Of a DNA stretch of 44,943 nucleotides, positions 3,450 to 26,152 are shown piece after piece. Both the position numbers and the translations under genes were made by a program. Numbering within the stretch: position 1 is the stretch's first letter; every line of letters starts with the position of its first letter. This DNA comes from Gammaproteobacteria bacterium. GTDB lineage: Bacteria; Pseudomonadota; Gammaproteobacteria; Steroidobacterales; Woeseiaceae. The notes below the pieces were generated by a model that did no database searches, was not told where the DNA came from, and saw only the letters and a list, made by a program, of their open reading frames with translations. The stretch is taken from positions 1 to 44,943 of the forward strand of contig JAUHZT010000009.1 in assembly GCA_030425905.1 (NCBI GenBank), in the 5' to 3' direction.

Positions 3450-4829
3450 TCAGCGCGCCCGGCTAAACTCCAGGGGCTGGCCGGCAATTGCACCGGTGAG
3501 CCGACCTCCCTCGTACACTATGTTGCCGTTGACGATGGTCGTATCGATACTGGATGAGAAGCGATGCCCGGTGAATGGCGACCACTGGCACTTACTGAGA
3601 AGATTCTTGTCAGTCACCTCATAAGAGGTGTCCGGATCGACAAGGACGAGGTCCGCATACCAGCCTTCGCGCACATAGCCGCGCTCGCCAACACCGAAAA
3701 TGTCGGCGGGCGCGTGACAGGCTTTCTCGACCAGCAACTCGTGGCTAATGGACCCGGCGGCTGCAAGATCGAACAGCGTCAGCAGCGCATGCTGGACAAG
3801 CGGCAGCCCCGCTGGGGCCTTGAAGTAATGCCGCGCTTTTTCCTCAGCCGTATGGGGCGCGTGGTCAGTCGCGATGACATCAATGCGGCCCGAATTGAGA
3901 GCGGCCAACAGCGCTTCACGGTCTTCCCGGCGCTTGATGGCCGGATTGCACTTGATGGCGGCGCCAAGTTCAGCGTAACGCGAATCATCAAACCACAGGT
4001 GATGGACACAGACTTCCGCCGTGATGCGTTTTTCGCCGCGCGGCGCGGCGGAAAACAAGTCCATCTCGATCGCCGTTGTCAGGTGCAGCACATGCAGCAG
4101 GGCATCGTGGCGCGTTGCAAGGTCAACGGCCATGGTGGAGGACTTGAGGCAGGCCTCGGCCGAACGGATATTCGGGTGTTCGCTGAAGGGAACGTCGTCA
4201 CCGTAGCGCTCTTTCGCCGCGGCCTCGTTCGCCCAGATCATCGGGGAATCTTCACAATGCGTCAGCACGATGACGGGCGCGTGCGCAAAAATCTGTTCGA
4301 GTGTTGCCGGGTCGTCCACAAGCATGTCACCCGTCGACGCACCCATGAATGCTTTGATGCCAGCACCCTCACCTACCTGCAAGGCTTTGATTTCTTCAAT
4401 GTTCTGGTTGGTAGCCCCGAGGTAGAAGCCATAGTTTGAGGTGCACCGGCCACGCGCCAGCTCGTACTTGTCGGCCAGCGCAGTTCGGGTCACCGTCAGC
4501 GGATTAACGTTCGGCATGTCCATGAAACTGGTGATGCCCCCAGCGGCCGCTGCCGCCGATTCAGTAGCGAGGTCGCCTTTGTGTGTCATCCCCGGTTCGC
4601 GAAAATGCACCTGGTCATCGATCATGCCTGGCATCAGGTATTTGCCTGCCGCATCAATAATTTGCGCGTCGTGCGGTGCGCTGATACCAGACCCTATCTG
4701 CGCGATCCGTTCGCCGTGCACTAACACATCGACCTCGCGAATAGCACCTTCGTTGATGAGTCGCGCATTGTTGATCAGTAGTTTTTTCATTCGCCCGGGT
4801 GTCGCGTCGGCAATGGCCGTGAGCTTCAT
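3450..4829 (-). CDS. pyrC: Dihydroorotase (class I-type amidohydrolase)
   Basis: 459 residues. It should interconvert N-carbamoyl-aspartate and dihydroorotate, step three of pyrimidine synthesis. The metal-site signature reads DDQVHFREPG (71-80): the first His of the usual HxH is Gln73, which from memory is normal for one dihydroorotase clade also found in Bacteroidetes. GIKAFMGAS supplies the bridging lysine, HCED and HLTTA the further histidines, and TDHAPHT the catalytic Asp region, so the site otherwise looks intact. The ATG shares the sequence TAATG with the stop of the exporter gene, implying coupled translation. A second possible start, MKKLL at residue 14, would match the usual N-terminus better; neither has a good ribosome site. 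Other cyclic amidases (hydantoinase, allantoinase) are less likely given the FREPG motif. Its place behind an export operon is odd. Confidence 0.85.
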   Translation of the reverse strand: MKLTAIADATPGRMKKLLINNARLINEGAIREVDVLVHGERIAQIGSGISAPHDAQIIDAAGKYLMPGMIDDQVHFREPGMTHKGDLATESAAAAAGGITSFMDMPNVNPLTVTRTALADKYELARGRCTSNYGFYLGATNQNIEEIKALQVGEGAGIKAFMGASTGDMLVDDPATLEQIFAHAPVIVLTHCEDSPMIWANEAAAKERYGDDVPFSEHPNIRSAEACLKSSTMAVDLATRHDALLHVLHLTTAIEMDLFSAAPRGEKRITAEVCVHHLWFDDSRYAELGAAIKCNPAIKRREDREALLAALNSGRIDVIATDHAPHTAEEKARHYFKAPAGLPLVQHALLTLFDLAAAGSISHELLVEKACHAPADIFGVGERGYVREGWYADLVLVDPDTSYEVTDKNLLSKCQWSPFTGHRFSSSIDTTIVNGNIVYEGGRLTGAIAGQPLEFSRAR

Positions 4830-20167: not shown

Positions 20168-22612
20168 ATGACTGGCAGTAAAATTCCGCGATACCTACTC
20201 TTTGGCAGCGTCCTCGGCGTCGCGGTCACAATCATTATGCTGTCGATGTTTTACGGGCAGTACCATCTGCTGGCGCGCAGCGTTATCGCGGACAGCTCCG
20301 CCGATCATGATGCATTCCTGCAACGGAATATGGAACGCCAGGCACAGGCGGACATGCAGCACATCGCCTACTGGTTTACGCGTCGCATCGCGGCCAGCGA
20401 CGCGCCAACCGTACAAGAGACACTTGATTCACTCCTGCTCGATCACGAATACCTGAGCGGCATCCAATATACAGACGTAAACGGGGCGAACCTGCAGGCG
20501 GGTCACTGGCCTTCCCGTTCCGATGAGACAGACCAGACCTGGCAGGACGAGTATCTCGTCGCATCAGCGCCGGTGCCAGACCAGTCCGGCAGTGCTGTGA
20601 GTGGCGCTTTCAGTCTTGCCGCTCTGCAAGCAGAATCGGCCGCCTTTACCAGCCAGCTTGAGCAGAACGAACTGGACCGACGACGCGTCAGTTACCTCTG
20701 GATCGGACTTGGCACCTTTGCAACCTTAATGGCATGCGCTGGAATTGTTGCATTGATCGCCCGTGATCAGACCCGACGAATCCGCGACCTAAAATACCAG
20801 GCACAGAAACTTCGCGATGCCGATTTTGGCGAGCCAATAGCCGAACGACGCGGCGACGAACTGGGTGCGTTAGCGGCCGTGTTTAACGAAATGCGCGACG
20901 AGTTGCGATCCACAACCATCAGTCGCGATTACCTCGACAATGTCTTATCCAGCATGAATGATGCAATCATCATCACGACCCATGAGGGCAAGATCAAGCG
21001 CATCAACAAGGCAACCACGCACTTGCTGGGTTACGACGAGAGCGAACTGGAAGATACCTCGATCGACTATATCGTCGACACGAAGAAGAGCGCTGCGCTG
21101 GCCAATGACTCGACCGCGGGCTTGCCAAAAGATGCGTTTTTTGAAAGCAAATTCGGCGAGTCTATTCCAGTCTCTTATACCTGCTCTATTCTCGAAGGCA
21201 CTGAATCGGAACCGGGCGATCGGATCTACGCTGCGCAAAACACTACCGAGCGGCGGCGCGCGGAACAGCGTATCCGCTATCTCGCGCGCATTGATGCGTT
21301 GACCAAAATCCCGAATCGGATGCAGTTCCAGCATTTGCTACAGCGTGGCATTGCTCGGGCGCGGCGCAGCAGCCGGTCCCTCTGCCTCTTTTACATCGAC
21401 GTCGATCATTTCAAGGAAATTAACGATACCTTTGGCCACCTGGCTGGCGATACAACGCTGGAAACCGTAGCCGAACGGCTCACGTCCGTGCTCCCACCCC
21501 GATCAATAATCGGACGGCTGGCCGGCGATGAGTTTGCGGTAATTGTTGACGGTGCAAGGTCTGATGCTGCCGGCAAGGCCGAAACGGACAAGCTCGCAAA
21601 AACCTTGCTCGCAAAGCTTGCTGATCCGTTTTTCGTGCAGGGACACGAAGTATTCATGACCGCGAGTATGGGCATTGCCTTTTATCCGCAGGATGCGCCG
21701 AATGTAATTGATCTGATCAGAAATGCCGATGCCGCCATGTACCACGCGAAGAAATCGGGCGGCAACCTCCACTCGTACTATGCGCCCAAGATGAATGAGG
21801 CCGCGGTTGAACGGCTGATGACCAAGAGCCGGCTAAAGCGCGCCTTCGAGCGGGACGAATTACTGGTTCACTACCAGCCCAAATACAATCTCGCGACCGG
21901 CGAAGTCTACGGCGCTGAAGCCCTGGTCCGCTGGGAGCTTCCCGAACGCGGTCTGATTCTGCCGTCGGACTTTATTCCGATTGCCGAGGAAACCAACCTG
22001 ATCATTGAGATTGGCGAATGGGTGCTCGACAAGGTTTGCGAAGATTTCCGTTACTGGCAACGCTCGGTATCTTCGCCTGGCCGGGTGTCAGTAAACCTGT
22101 CGCTCAAACAACTCAAGCAGAGGAATTTTACGCAACGCATCAGCGCCATCATGCGCAGTTATGAAGTTTCTCCGACGTCGCTTGAGCTCGAGATAACTGA
22201 AACAACACTGATGGAGAATCCGGAACGTACAATCAAATTACTCGACCAGCTCTATGCACTCGGCCTGCATCTTGCGATTGACGATTTTGGCACCGGCTAT
22301 TCATCGCTTAGCGCGCTACAGCAATTTCCCATTAGCACCCTCAAGATCGACAAGTCGTTTGTGCGCCATGTGGCTACCAACGCGGACGACGCCACGCTGG
22401 TGGGCACAATTGTCCAGATGGGGCGAAACATGAACATGGACGTGGTTGCCGAGGGCGTTGAGGAAACCGATCAATTGGCATTCCTGCAGTCGATCGACTG
22501 CACCTATGCACAAGGACTTTTGTTCGGAGATCCAATGAGTTCCGACAACTATCTGGAGTTGCTGCTGGCCCAGATGGAAGGCACAGACGCTTACCGCGCT
22601 CTTTTTGCCTGA
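20168..22612 (+). CDS. Membrane-bound HAMP-PAS-GGDEF-EAL cyclic di-GMP protein
   Basis: 814 residues. Helix one is at about 12-31, a periplasmic sensor domain at about 32-175, helix two at about 177-200, HAMP to about 250, PAS about 260-370, GGDEF about 385-545 and EAL about 565-810. The GGDEF motif reads AGDEF (near 454), and the upstream RxxD inhibitory site is missing. The EAL domain keeps all expected motifs: EALVRW (near 584), VNLSLKQL, ELEITETTLM, DDFGTGYSS, LKIDKSF, AEGVEE and QGLLFG. Phosphodiesterase activity on cyclic di-GMP is therefore likely; cyclase activity is uncertain. No cyclic di-GMP riboswitch was seen upstream. Confidence 0.92.
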   Translation: MTGSKIPRYLLFGSVLGVAVTIIMLSMFYGQYHLLARSVIADSSADHDAFLQRNMERQAQADMQHIAYWFTRRIAASDAPTVQETLDSLLLDHEYLSGIQYTDVNGANLQAGHWPSRSDETDQTWQDEYLVASAPVPDQSGSAVSGAFSLAALQAESAAFTSQLEQNELDRRRVSYLWIGLGTFATLMACAGIVALIARDQTRRIRDLKYQAQKLRDADFGEPIAERRGDELGALAAVFNEMRDELRSTTISRDYLDNVLSSMNDAIIITTHEGKIKRINKATTHLLGYDESELEDTSIDYIVDTKKSAALANDSTAGLPKDAFFESKFGESIPVSYTCSILEGTESEPGDRIYAAQNTTERRRAEQRIRYLARIDALTKIPNRMQFQHLLQRGIARARRSSRSLCLFYIDVDHFKEINDTFGHLAGDTTLETVAERLTSVLPPRSIIGRLAGDEFAVIVDGARSDAAGKAETDKLAKTLLAKLADPFFVQGHEVFMTASMGIAFYPQDAPNVIDLIRNADAAMYHAKKSGGNLHSYYAPKMNEAAVERLMTKSRLKRAFERDELLVHYQPKYNLATGEVYGAEALVRWELPERGLILPSDFIPIAEETNLIIEIGEWVLDKVCEDFRYWQRSVSSPGRVSVNLSLKQLKQRNFTQRISAIMRSYEVSPTSLELEITETTLMENPERTIKLLDQLYALGLHLAIDDFGTGYSSLSALQQFPISTLKIDKSFVRHVATNADDATLVGTIVQMGRNMNMDVVAEGVEETDQLAFLQSIDCTYAQGLLFGDPMSSDNYLELLLAQMEGTDAYRALFA

Positions 22613-22722: not shown

Positions 22723-23082
22723 ATGAATAAACTATTGAAGACATCGATCGCCATTGCAATGCTCGCACTCGCTCCGTTTGCCTATGCCTGCGACTATCCC
22801 AAGAAAGCAGAACTTCCGGACGGTGCAACTGCCAGCAAGGAAGAGATGCTCGCCGGACAATCTTCCGTCAAGGCATACATGGCTGCCATGGAAACCTACC
22901 TGGCCTGTATCGAAAAGGAAGAACAGGACACGCTGGCTACGATGACGGACATTACTGAGGAAGAAAGCGCCACGCGAGATGCGGCGCTTACAAAGAAATA
23001 CAACGCGGCTGTCGCCGAGATGGAACTGATCGCAGCTCAGTTCAATGAACAGGTGCGTGCCTACAAAGCACAGTCAGAGTAA
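22723..23082 (+). CDS. Small secreted protein of unknown function
   Basis: 119 residues. A clear signal peptide (MNKLLK, hydrophobic core, cleavage probably after YA near residue 22) leads into a mature protein of about 97 residues that is helical and rich in Glu, Ala and Lys. Two cysteines (the first mature residue or next to it, and one near 62 in YLACIEKEE) could form a disulfide. The start has AAGAAG upstream. No domain was recognised. It has its own candidate promoter and is convergent with the Psp operon. Confidence 0.75.
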   Translation: MNKLLKTSIAIAMLALAPFAYACDYPKKAELPDGATASKEEMLAGQSSVKAYMAAMETYLACIEKEEQDTLATMTDITEEESATRDAALTKKYNAAVAEMELIAAQFNEQVRAYKAQSE

Positions 23083-23103: not shown

Positions 23104-23331
23104 CTATAGCCTGTCGATCTCCTGCCGGAGATCGAACTTGTTTTCGGTGACAATGCGCTCGAGGACGCGAATACGCTCCTCGAGCGCCTTCAGCTCTTCT
23201 TTGGTACTGGCCGAGTCCTTGTCCGATAGCCCGCTGGCGGCTTTTGCCGCTTTTGCCTTGAAATAATCGCTGAATACGGCGGTTGCGCAAGCGATGGCGA
23301 CGATGCAAACGACGAAGAACATATTGCTCAT
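23104..23331 (-). CDS. Small Psp-operon membrane protein with C-terminal zipper
   Basis: 75 residues from the ATG at 23331, with AAGGGG at good spacing; a longer upstream frame is only a shadow of the previous gene. One N-terminal membrane helix (about 4-20) is followed by a helical region. The last ~20 residues (LERIVTENKFDLRQEIDRL) closely resemble the C-terminal zipper of the neighbouring PspC. The segment before it (ALEERIRVLE) also recalls PspB. It lies 23 nt behind pspC and is the last gene of the operon, where Escherichia coli has pspD, but it is not clearly PspD. Confidence 0.75.
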   Translation of the reverse strand: MSNMFFVVCIVAIACATAVFSDYFKAKAAKAASGLSDKDSASTKEELKALEERIRVLERIVTENKFDLRQEIDRL

Positions 23332-23354
23332 AGACTGCCCCTTATTGGTCTGGA

Positions 23355-23750
23355 CTATCGATGCCCCAGATCCTTGAACTCTTTGTCCAGCTGGTACCGG
23401 CTTGAAGTGACGTATTTTTCCAGCCGCGCCAGCCGTCTGTCCAGAGACTGAAAGCGTCGGCCAACGTCGCTCATGGCTTTCGTCGGCGCCGAACGAACAG
23501 ACTTCTTGAAGACCGGATCCGAATTTCTTGTGTCCAACTTGGTCGATTGCGATGGCACCAGCATTACAATTGCCAGGTAGGCGACTGCGCCCAGCAATGG
23601 ATTGACCAGAAAGCCGATTACAGCCAGGACGCGCGTAGCCTTGAGGTTGAAACCAAAATAGTCGGCCAGCCCTGCACAAACACCGCCCAACATCGCATTG
23701 TCAGCGCTGCGCGCAAAACGACGATCTGGCCCAACCGGTCGTTGACTCAT
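23355..23750 (-). CDS. pspC: Phage shock protein C (full-length type)
   Basis: 131 residues from the ATG at 23750, which overlaps the upstream stop as ATGA. The PspC domain (about 12-70) contains MLGGVCAGLADYFG and a membrane segment. The C-terminus is a helical zipper (SLDRRLARLEKYVTSSRYQL), matching the arrangement of canonical PspC. With PspB it should sense inner-membrane stress and release PspF from PspA. It is the second PspC-domain gene in this operon; its zipper makes it the better candidate for the signalling subunit. Confidence 0.85.
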   Translation of the reverse strand: MSQRPVGPDRRFARSADNAMLGGVCAGLADYFGFNLKATRVLAVIGFLVNPLLGAVAYLAIVMLVPSQSTKLDTRNSDPVFKKSVRSAPTKAMSDVGRRFQSLDRRLARLEKYVTSSRYQLDKEFKDLGHR

Positions 23751-24040
23751 GAATGTCTCCAACGGTCGCGCTGCTGCCGGCGCCAAAACTCATACTCGTC
23801 ATCTCTGCCTGAGTATACGAGTGGTTTTTCGCGGATCAGCAACGTCGCGGCTATATACACCGCCACAGTTAACCACGTGAATATCAGCAGACAAATGAAA
23901 ACAATGATCCGGACAGCGCCGAGGTTCAGGTTAAAACGGTCAGCGAGCCCTGAGCACACACCGAATATCCAGCTGTTCTCACGATCCCGGTAGAATCCAC
24001 GCAGTGGTCCATGATCACTGTTCCAGGTTCCACGACTCAT
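23747..24040 (-). CDS. PspC-domain protein, short form
   Basis: 97 residues from the ATG at 24040, overlapping the pspB stop as TAATG with GGAGG 8 nt upstream; the in-frame ATG at 24055 overlaps that ribosome site and is unlikely to be used. The PspC domain (about 20-75) has WIFGVCSGLADRFN and a membrane helix, followed by a charged Arg/Asp/Trp tail without the zipper of the next gene. It is probably an accessory membrane component of the Psp response, derived by duplication of pspC. Confidence 0.8.
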   Translation of the reverse strand: MSRGTWNSDHGPLRGFYRDRENSWIFGVCSGLADRFNLNLGAVRIIVFICLLIFTWLTVAVYIAATLLIREKPLVYSGRDDEYEFWRRQQRDRWRHS

Positions 24041-24264
24041 TATTTTTTCCTCCATTCCGGCGATTCATCGTCGAGAATTTTTTCCAGCGTGACGAGCCGC
24101 TCTTCCATTCGCTGTGACAAGGCATGCAAATCTTCAAGCAACTGTTCGTCGTCTCCTGAAATTTCCCGCGACTGTTTCCATTTGGTGACGAAGTGCAAAA
24201 CGATAAATAGCGGCGCTACGATCGTCAGCACCAGGATGATTGCTAGTGTGCCGATGGATCCCAT
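24040..24264 (-). CDS. pspB: Phage shock protein B
   Basis: 74 residues, the usual PspB length. A membrane helix at about 5-26 is followed by the cytoplasmic helix RMEERLVTLEKILDDESPEWR, the part of PspB that contacts PspA and PspC. It begins 3 nt after the pspA stop and ends within the start of the short PspC-domain gene. It is expected to work with PspC as sensor of membrane damage. Confidence 0.85.
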   Translation of the reverse strand: MGSIGTLAIILVLTIVAPLFIVLHFVTKWKQSREISGDDEQLLEDLHALSQRMEERLVTLEKILDDESPEWRKK

Positions 24265-24267
24265 CGC

Positions 24268-24948
24268 TCACTCTACCTCCGTGGCCCGCTCACCCTTCAC
24301 CCGGCGTTTCAGGTCGTCGAGTTCCTGCATGACCGACTCCTCCGCCTCCAGGCTGGCAAACTGATGATTCAGGTCTTTTGGCAAACCCAGGTCGTAGGCT
24401 TCGATCCGGCTCTCTACGTCATCGATGCGCCGTGTGTACTGCTCAAAGCGCACCATCGCATCATCAATCTTGTAGTCGTAGATTTTCTTGCGTGCCGCGA
24501 GACGGCTGCTGGCAGTCTTGTGCCGGGCCAGCAGAGACTTCTGTCGGCCTTTGGCATCTTCAAGCTTTGCTTCCAGGCGGGCGATGTCTTCGTTCAACTT
24601 GGCAAGCCCGTCGTCAACCGTAGCGTAGTCCCGTTTCAGGGCATCCCCTGCCGCTGCAACGCGTGACTTTTCAACCAAGGCCGCTTTGGCCAGGTCTTCG
24701 CGCCCTTTGCGCAACGCCAGCTCGGCTTTTGCTGCCCAGTCGTCGAGTTCGCGATCCAGCGATTCGAGTTTACGATTGAGGTCTTTCTTGTCAGCGATTG
24801 ATCGAGCAGCCGCGGAACGTACTTCAACCAGCGTGTCCTCCATTTCCTGGATCATCAATCGAATGATCTTCTCCGGATCCTCGGCTTTGTCGAGAATCGC
24901 GTTGATGTTGGAGTTCACGATGTCCGAGAATCTCGTGAATATGCCCAT
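24268..24948 (-). CDS. pspA: Phage shock protein A
   Basis: 226 residues from the ATG at 24948, with AGAGGA upstream; this gives the classical N-terminus MGIFTRFSDIVNSNINA. Nearly the whole chain is coiled coil, with the conserved EDPEKIIRLMIQEMED near 30. PspA binds stressed inner membranes as an ESCRT-III-like oligomer and inhibits PspF when membranes are intact. It is the first gene of the operon and lies behind a sigma-54 promoter controlled by the divergent pspF. Confidence 0.96.
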   Translation of the reverse strand: MGIFTRFSDIVNSNINAILDKAEDPEKIIRLMIQEMEDTLVEVRSAAARSIADKKDLNRKLESLDRELDDWAAKAELALRKGREDLAKAALVEKSRVAAAGDALKRDYATVDDGLAKLNEDIARLEAKLEDAKGRQKSLLARHKTASSRLAARKKIYDYKIDDAMVRFEQYTRRIDDVESRIEAYDLGLPKDLNHQFASLEAEESVMQELDDLKRRVKGERATEVE

Positions 24949-24987: not shown

Positions 24988-25003
24988 TGCAGCATCCGTG
25001 CCA
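24988..25003 (-). promoter_or_regulatory. Sigma-54 promoter of the psp operon
   Basis: On the minus strand TGGCACG, four bases and CTGCA give the GG-N10-GC spacing required for RpoN. Only one base of the -12 element departs from the consensus. Predicted transcription start is near 24977, about 30 nt before the pspA ATG. A sigma-54 activator gene (pspF) divergent from it supports the assignment. Confidence 0.85.
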
Positions 25004-25087: not shown

Positions 25088-25135
25088 TTTCACCATTTAC
25101 TGGTGTATTTCACCAGTTATAGGGATAATTCACCA
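25088..25135. promoter_or_regulatory. PspF enhancer (UAS) repeats
   Basis: TTCACCA occurs three times (ending 25095, 25115 and 25135), and TGGTG lies between the first two, so CACCA-N5-TGGTG and TGGTG-N5-CACCA palindromes overlap. The array is about 110-160 bp upstream of the predicted psp transcription start, a normal distance for an enhancer, and directly abuts the pspF ATG. PspF bound here could therefore also repress its own gene (inference). Confidence 0.65.
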
Positions 25136-26152
25136 ATGAGTACGAGCCGCCCTGTGCAGACAATCATCGGTGAAGCCCCGGTCTTTCTCGAGATGCTCGA
25201 ACATGTATCGCGCGCCGCACCGCTTTCCAAGCCAGTGCTGGTCGTCGGCGAGCGCGGTACGGGCAAGGAATTGATCGCGGCCCGGCTGCATTACCTGTCG
25301 GGGCGCTGGGAAGGCGGGTTCGTAAAGGTAAATTGCGCCGCATTGACCGAGTCAATTCTTGAATCGGAACTTTTCGGGCACGAAGCCGGGGCTTTTACAG
25401 GCGCGGCAAAAACCCACATTGGACACTTTGAGCGGGCGGACGGCGGCACACTGATTCTCGACGAACTCGCGACAATCAGCCTGCGTATGCAGGAAAAAAT
25501 CCTCAGGGTTATCGAATACGGCGAAATTCAGCGCGTGGGTGGCAACGAAACGCTGAATGTCGATGTGCGGATAGTTGGCTCCACCAATGCCGATCTGCGG
25601 GCGCTTGCCGCCAGGGGGCAGTTCCGCGAAGACCTGCTTGACCGCCTCGCTTTCGACGTCATTACGATCCCCCCGCTACGTGAGCGCGCTGAAGACATAC
25701 TCCCGCTTGCCTATGCATTTGCCGTAAATATGTCCAGCGAGTTACGCCGCCCTTTGTTTGCTGGTTTCGGACCGCGCGCCTCATCCTCGCTACTGAAGTA
25801 CGACTGGCCCGGCAATGTTCGCGAACTGAAGAACGCTGTCGAGCGTTCGGTTTATCGATCGCCGGAAAGCAACGAGGTCATCACAGAGATCGCTTTCGAT
25901 CCGTTTGACTCGCCGTTTACGCTGGCTGACACGAGCCGCAGCACAACAACGGCGACAGCCGCAAAGCAAGTGACGCCGTTGCTGCCAACGCACCTGCCAG
26001 AAAGGCTGATCGACTTCGAGAGGGATTTGCTGGACGCCGCGATGCAACGCGCTCGCTACAACCAGCGGTTAGCCGCTGAGTTACTAGGCCTCAGCTATGA
26101 CCAGCTTCGCGGGCGACTTCGCAAACACAACATCAAGACCAGTGCCGACTAG
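25136..26152 (+). CDS. pspF: Psp operon transcriptional activator, sigma-54 dependent
   Basis: 338 residues from the ATG at 25136. The AAA+ domain begins at once, with no receiver or other sensor domain, as in PspF. Motifs: GERGTGKE (Walker A, near 36), GAFTGAA (sigma-54 contact loop, near 86), GGTLILDEL (Walker B) and the arginine-finger region REDLLDRL. The C-terminal helix-turn-helix (RLAAELLGLSYDQLRGRL) binds DNA. It is divergent from pspA, and its enhancer sites lie in the shared gap. Confidence 0.93.
   Translation: MSTSRPVQTIIGEAPVFLEMLEHVSRAAPLSKPVLVVGERGTGKELIAARLHYLSGRWEGGFVKVNCAALTESILESELFGHEAGAFTGAAKTHIGHFERADGGTLILDELATISLRMQEKILRVIEYGEIQRVGGNETLNVDVRIVGSTNADLRALAARGQFREDLLDRLAFDVITIPPLRERAEDILPLAYAFAVNMSSELRRPLFAGFGPRASSSLLKYDWPGNVRELKNAVERSVYRSPESNEVITEIAFDPFDSPFTLADTSRSTTTATAAKQVTPLLPTHLPERLIDFERDLLDAAMQRARYNQRLAAELLGLSYDQLRGRLRKHNIKTSAD

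Follow-up and report, generated by a model that had tools for sequence, protein, structure and literature searches.

The way in which PspB and PspC detect membrane damage and release PspF is unsettled in the studies considered here, partly because one PspC protein does several jobs. A psp locus of a marine, Woeseiaceae-type gammaproteobacterium, contained in a stretch of 44,943 nucleotides (hereafter, the window), raises the question of whether these jobs can be carried by separate genes, in which case they would be separable by single deletions. We addressed it by profile comparison of the operon's small proteins and by a survey of their occurrence in the Woeseiaceae and beyond.

Two complementary PspC proteins in one psp operon

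Judged by its sequence, the locus is a psp operon of the PspF/sigma-54 type. The divergent pspF, encoding the sigma-54 activator of the operon (25103–26152, forward strand; TIGR02974, 482.6 bits, above the cut-off), adjoins pspA and faces five genes on the reverse strand, pspA-pspB-C1-C2-Z. A predicted sigma-54 (−24/−12) type promoter of pspA, TGGCACGGATGCTGCA (24988–25003, reverse strand), reaches a score of 20.0, against a maximum of 21, under a hand-entered consensus and weights, and none of 200 mononucleotide shuffles equaled it. The promoter is followed by pspA (24268–24948; TIGR02977, 290.6 bits, above the cut-off), a canonical pspB (24040–24264; PF06667, 83 bits; TIGR02976, 76.4 bits), pspC1 (C1, 97 aa; 23747–24040), pspC2 (C2, 131 aa; 23355–23750) and Z (75 aa; 23104–23331), all on the reverse strand. 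The genes are tightly packed, with overlaps of 1 nt between pspB and C1 and of 4 nt between C1 and C2, and a gap of 23 nt between C2 and Z. Leftward of the 3′ end of the operon are genes for a bactofilin (PF04519; 19557–19973) and a HAMP-PAS-GGDEF-EAL protein (20168–22612), and a gene convergent with Z (22723–23082) encodes a protein of 119 aa that begins, as judged by eye, like a signal peptide and has no Pfam match at E ≤ 1.

The preliminary description of the locus had placed two PspC-domain genes and a 75-residue protein after pspAB, with the C-terminal tail missing from the shorter PspC and present in the 75-residue protein, and both statements hold. C1 and C2 pass the Pfam PspC (PF04024) cut-off of 25 bits, at 57.4 and 58.8 bits, respectively, and Z has no PF04024 match at E ≤ 1. 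Against the full-length PspC model TIGR02978 (NCBIfam; 121 positions, cut-off 104 bits), the tailless C1 reaches 67.9 bits over positions 2–81, without the C-terminal part, C2 falls narrowly below the cut-off with full coverage (positions 2–121, 97.0 bits), and Z matches positions 63–121, that is, the C-terminal half without the PspC domain (E = 2.4e-6, below the cut-off). The two peptides quoted earlier are present as LEKYVTSSRY in the tail of C2 (residues 110–119, 23394–23423; tail at 23367–23459, on the evidence of TIGR02978 coverage and hhalign) and as LERIVTENKF in Z (residues 57–66, 23134–23163).

This anatomy is a constant feature of the family. PspC is present in 43 of the 61 Woeseiaceae genomes, each of which has exactly two copies, lying in tandem on a single contig and no more than about 300 bp apart, and all 43 also carry Z (as a fragment at the contig start in genome G042). 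Among 40 family loci fetched by their PspC, a set that omits genomes G037 and G044 of the 43, C1 and C2 occur in every one and Z lies in the psp operon in 39, the exception, L064, stopping at the contig end. Across these loci and the window (41/41), C1 carries the FW of its KPLVYSG..EYEFWRR segment (23777–23827, reverse strand, coordinates counted from residue numbers) and no tail, and C2 carries the tail and no FW, which supports the duplication part of the earlier proposal, the two PspC copies having become complementary.

Pairs of a short and a tailed PspC also occur outside the family, in loci L019, L022, L111, L119, L125 and L192, and in every such pair the short copy lies upstream and adjoins pspB; locus L124 encodes two PspC domains in a single 241-aa protein with one tail. 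The PspCs of L130, L142 and L202 are tailed, though the tail pattern misses them. In a PspC-domain tree, weak at 55 domains and 66 columns, the short copies of the Woeseiaceae group with those of L019 and L022 (13 rows, support 94/84), the exception being the short copy of L052, which falls outside L019 and L022, and the tailed copies of the Woeseiaceae likewise group with the tailed copies of L019 and L022 (13 rows, 88/65). Since short copies thus cluster with short and tailed with tailed, the tree is most simply read as a single PspC duplication predating the family, of which C1 is the tailless product. The copies of L119 (99/98) and of L192 (98/93) each join one another and therefore point to separate duplications; the short copy of L125 groups with sphingomonads (94/95), and the L111 pair does not resolve.

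A linker element of PspC and the loss of PspB

Between the membrane part and the tail of PspC sits a linker element, [FY]-x7-P-x2-[TSAQE] (F-x7-P-x2-T), a pattern framed post hoc, after the loci had been seen. It is found in 80 of the 88 alphaproteobacterial psp loci sampled and, in the window, in C2 (F-x7-P-x2-[TSAQE]; 23463–23510, reverse strand, coordinates counted from residue numbers). In the Woeseiaceae, C2 proteins from loci with PspB keep the element, without the tryptophan, and those from loci lacking PspB have a variable, often arginine-rich linker. Canonical PspB (≥65 bits) is encoded by 31 of the 43 PspC-bearing family genomes; in the other 12, searches of the whole genome returned at most a weak PspB hit, which then lay on Z itself, so mere relocation of the gene is ruled out.

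The joint distribution of element and PspB was counted over 149 loci containing both PspA and PspC, with identical PspC ends dropped and with the proviso that one species may count twice. All 111 loci with the element have PspB, and none of the 25 PspB-less loci, 20 of which are from Woeseiaceae, has the element. The 25 include L189, a PspA-PspC locus whose genome, G847, has PspB elsewhere, so that this locus is not a true loss. No PspB turned up in whole-genome searches of G587, of G065, a genome only 62% complete, and of the two genomes, both Novosphingobium, to which L020 and L021 belong; the same search was positive in G351 and G847. PspB does not need the element everywhere, since 13 of the 124 PspB-bearing loci have no match to the linker pattern; three of these miss it narrowly (L033, L068 and L163) and one, L064, was misparsed.

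The same association was recovered with an HMM of the element built from 65 sphingomonad PspCs. Woeseiaceae C2 proteins from loci with PspB (n = 29) score from −2.1 to 18.3 bits and those from loci without it (n = 12) at most 0.8 bits (Mann–Whitney p = 1e-6, uncorrected for kinship); C2 of the window itself reaches only 1.4 bits. Because the PspB-bearing L038 sits within the PspB-less Woeseiaceae clade (support 85, in a tree that omits L032, which had too little sequence), the losses in this family would number one or two. In the sphingomonads, the tree indicates probably two losses, and a single loss is not rejected by the AU test (p = 0.114). The incomplete genome G065 adds one further candidate loss. 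The association between element and PspB thus rests on about three to five loss events.

From this joint absence, we infer that the linker element may serve PspB, and the element thereby becomes a specific, predicted contact site. Operons without PspB further suggest that some lineages can dispense with this protein. The rule is probably not universal. L103, an E. coli-like PspC, has no F-x7-P-x2-T element. Two-hybrid work in E. coli, which speaks against universality, located the contact of PspB within the membrane part of PspC (residues 40–68) and not in a linker (PMC3068692, in part).

Z, a small membrane protein with a PspC-type tail

Z, the last gene of the operon, encodes a one-helix, membrane-anchored protein with a tail (23107–23196, reverse strand) containing the LERIVTENKF signature. 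The likeness between this peptide and that of C2, on which the preliminary description had relied, survives profile comparison. Aligned with hhalign, Z and C2 match over the tail with a probability of 94.1% (E = 1.2e-7), Z and C1 with 0.7%, PspB and C2 with 18%, and Z and PspB with 94.5%; Z thus aligns with both the C2 tail and PspB and so connects the two. Against an HMM built from 85 alphaproteobacterial PspC tails, that is, from other taxa, the cytoplasmic half of Z scores 25.9 bits, equaled by none of 4000 permutations, 2000 of them free (maximum 8.4) and 2000 keeping the hydrophobic pattern (maximum 17.5), whereas PspB of the window scores 2.4 bits, which is noise (88 of 2000 pattern-keeping permutations were as good). 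Over the family, the 40 Z proteins score a median of 18.2 bits (10.1–28.1), the 41 C2 54.5 bits and the 29 PspB 1.0 bits, the 41 C1 lie at the floor, and the best of 1246 background open reading frames from the family loci reaches 10.6.

What the signature is called needs correction. The preliminary description had termed it a zipper; the peptide is indeed common to Z and C2, but in L103, a 119-aa PspC that we take to resemble that of E. coli, it falls within the 19 C-terminal residues. With L103 as the E. coli-like reference, the peptide common to Z and C2 is distinct from the published zipper and lies after it. That zipper was assigned to residues 77–98 of E. coli PspC (PMC3068692, in part). 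Low-confidence models predict helices at residues 3–32, 40–63 and 68–74 of Z (mean pLDDT 69.9) and, for the tail region of C2 (AlphaFold2), a helix at 91–115, a break and a helix at 117–129 (mean pLDDT 64.3). When solved structures were searched by sequence, the PspB profile had no match at E ≤ 1, the best match of the Z profile had E = 0.1, and the best 60 of the 123 hits of the PspC2 profile contained no solved PspB or PspC structure; the top matches of this last profile, to influenza HA2 helices, were set aside as coiled-coil noise.

Much about Z also resembles PspB, and a possible though doubtful interpretation is that Z is a second PspB, a duplicate that does the job of PspB and replaces it where it was lost. 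Z and PspB are alike in size and layout, Z aligns with nearly the whole of the PspB model TIGR02976 (positions 1–74, E = 2.2e-5), and among the 17 Z members tested at E ≤ 0.01, TIGR02976 is matched by 15 and PF06667 by 5. The Z family is common where present, yet Z of the window reaches no curated cut-off, staying below those for PspB (PF06667, 16.1 versus 25.6 bits; TIGR02976, 24.6 versus 51.7 bits), and just two of the relatives compared narrowly pass that of Pfam PspB (27.6 bits in G045 and 25.7 bits in G036). All 12 family genomes without PspB retain Z, and PspB duplicates in psp operons have already been reported (PMC11237479, in part). Against replacement, the C-terminal signature of Z and its score with the tail HMM are those of a PspC tail and not of PspB, PspB and Z occur together in 31 of the 43 family genomes and in 59 of 60 fetched sphingomonad loci, and the linker element of PspC vanishes with PspB although Z stays.

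Outside the Woeseiaceae, Z occurs in 7 of 274 genomes of Gammaproteobacteria (that of the window included), in 30 of 299 genomes across the phylum, and in at least 73 of the 79 genomes of the family of G351, which we call sphingomonad-type because the PspC of L158 equals that of Croceicoccus L016 over the compared part. Among 20 other alphaproteobacterial PspC stretches, covering 21 of 36 PspC matches, it was found in one (L192). The 60 sphingomonad loci (L125–L184) had been picked for a match to Z, and the presence of Z in them is thus by selection. In each, between one and seven distinct Z-like genes follow pspC, and a single PspC is seen in 59, the exception, L125, having two; the contig end truncates L183 on its upstream side.

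Such copy numbers would also suit an antagonist, with extra tails keeping C2 off or soaking up PspA and so damping the response, as pairing between tails would permit. PspB–PspC cytoplasmic contacts are said to silence the Psp response, judging from the title of a 2016 paper by Flores-Kim and Darwin, and we count this for damping. We nevertheless consider an antagonist unlikely, as the comparable E. coli fragment PspC40–119, a membrane helix plus tail, binds PspA when overproduced and induces psp without PspB (PMC3068692, in part).

Literal fission, in which the lost tail of C1 survives as Z, is highly improbable, although C1 and Z cover the PspC model in complementary fashion and share one operon in 39 of the 40 fetched family loci. 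A Z-like gene accompanies one full-length PspC, with no short copy, in 58 of the 60 sphingomonad loci and again in the gammaproteobacterial loci L113, L115 and L122, and short PspCs occur with no Z in the stretch read (L111 and L119). Z-like proteins form a family of their own, whose presence beside single full-length PspCs largely refutes fission, and Z is therefore most probably not the lost tail of C1; of the earlier suggestion that sensor and zipper functions were redistributed over three proteins, the tailless duplicate C1 stands and a tail transferred from C1 to Z does not. That Z is an unrelated small membrane protein with generic coiled-coil similarity can be dismissed, since, for all the spurious profile hits that occur (influenza HA2, E = 0.0098, among the best 60 of 123) and the invariance of EERIR.LE in alignment A4, which among the matches listed is partly due to selection, the peptide having served as the search pattern, the permutations and background reading frames reject a chance match and Z turned up in psp operons that had been fetched by PspC, not by Z.

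Some Z-like genes lie away from psp operons, in L081, L082, L085 and L089 (genomes of family f140) and in L080 (family f185); in L081, L082 and L085, the gene is flanked, by eye, by an apparent tadA on one side and an apparent transporter gene on the other. When the regions preceding Z in 16 non-psp loci were scanned for sigma-54 sites, those of L080, L082, L085 and L089 beat nearly all shuffles, as did one at the start codon in L093, the remaining loci having weaker sites or none. In L082, L085 and L089, the sigma-54-like site, TGGCAA-N6-TGC[AT], lies 142–290 nt upstream of the earliest start codon in the frame, and the genes may thus be orphan PspF targets, as pspG is. In one alphaproteobacterium (L188), pspABC is followed by a gene for an 80-aa protein with a PspC-type tail (3826–4068; TIGR02978 positions 82–121, E = 1.1e-6) and by a second PspB-like gene.

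Proposed division of roles and comparison with known systems

Our preferred reading, which we hold at about even chances of being right, is that of a psp operon with PspC taken apart, C1 acting as a sensor, C2 as a link and Z as an extra tail, and with PspB as a separate partner acting through the linker. C1 and Z match complementary parts of TIGR02978 (positions 2–81 and 63–121), and we propose the roles of sensor for C1, PspA dock for Z and link for C2 by analogy, because the contents of C1 and Z nearly match those of studied E. coli PspC fragments. The tailless PspC1–68 binds PspB and not PspA, reduces the proton-motive force and fails to induce psp, its counterpart being the inducing PspC40–119 described above, and zipper mutants of PspC lose PspA (PMC3068692, in part). 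The secretin stress signal is carried by full-length E. coli PspC only and by no fragment alone (same source, in part), so the split parts may not signal alone. The E. coli tail was also drawn as putatively periplasmic (PMC3068692, in part), which counts against the reading. In its favor, the C-terminal cytoplasmic domain of Yersinia PspC binds PspA in the on state (PMC5596341, in part).

Each binding step of the account is what we propose. C1, a PspC domain without the PspA-contacting tail, and C2, the tailed PspC, would most likely form a mixed membrane sensor, and Z would contribute one membrane helix and a free copy of the tail. The tails of C2 and Z may pair or share the docking of PspA, and under membrane stress they would remove PspA from PspF, with Z supplying more docking sites without more membrane-active PspC domains. 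PspB would act as a separate partner through the linker element of C2; in one clade it may have become dispensable, the element decaying there and Z staying. More speculatively, and with a good deal less confidence than we would need to press the point, Proteobacteria may, in several lineages, operate the Psp switch from separated components, Z tails being PspA docks, tailless PspCs pure membrane sensors, and PspB an optional partner that exerts its effect via the linker element and is lost along with that element, some lineages signaling without PspB through tails alone.

Searches of the open-licence literature returned no publication on phage shock in Woeseiaceae or on PspB in Sphingomonas, a weak negative, and pneumococcal matches for pspC2 with pspA. 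The pspF-pspABC systems of E. coli and Yersinia share with the window the divergent PspF, the sigma-54 type promoter, PspA, PspB and a tailed PspC, to which the window adds another PspC that has no tail and a tail protein encoded by its own gene. The E. coli constructs PspC1–68 and PspC40–119 come close to C1 and Z in domain content, but were made in the laboratory (PMC3068692, in part), whereas C1 and Z occur in nature, each as a gene of its own. The presence of several PspC domains in one genome is reported to be frequent (PMC9239133, in part); compared with that part, the Woeseiaceae have an adjacent, complementary pair inside one psp operon, fixed in the family as sampled. Besides the duplication of PspB within psp operons, Ravi et al. 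2024 (PMC11237479) described fusions in which PspC carries a divergent PspB at its C-terminus. Relative to the portion of that work compared, the family adds a short PspC in tandem with a tailed one, operons that retain Z without PspB, and the linker element. Given these published duplicates and fusions, the layout is a real variant of arrangement types already known, and the arrangement itself and the prediction that follows from the linker element are new.
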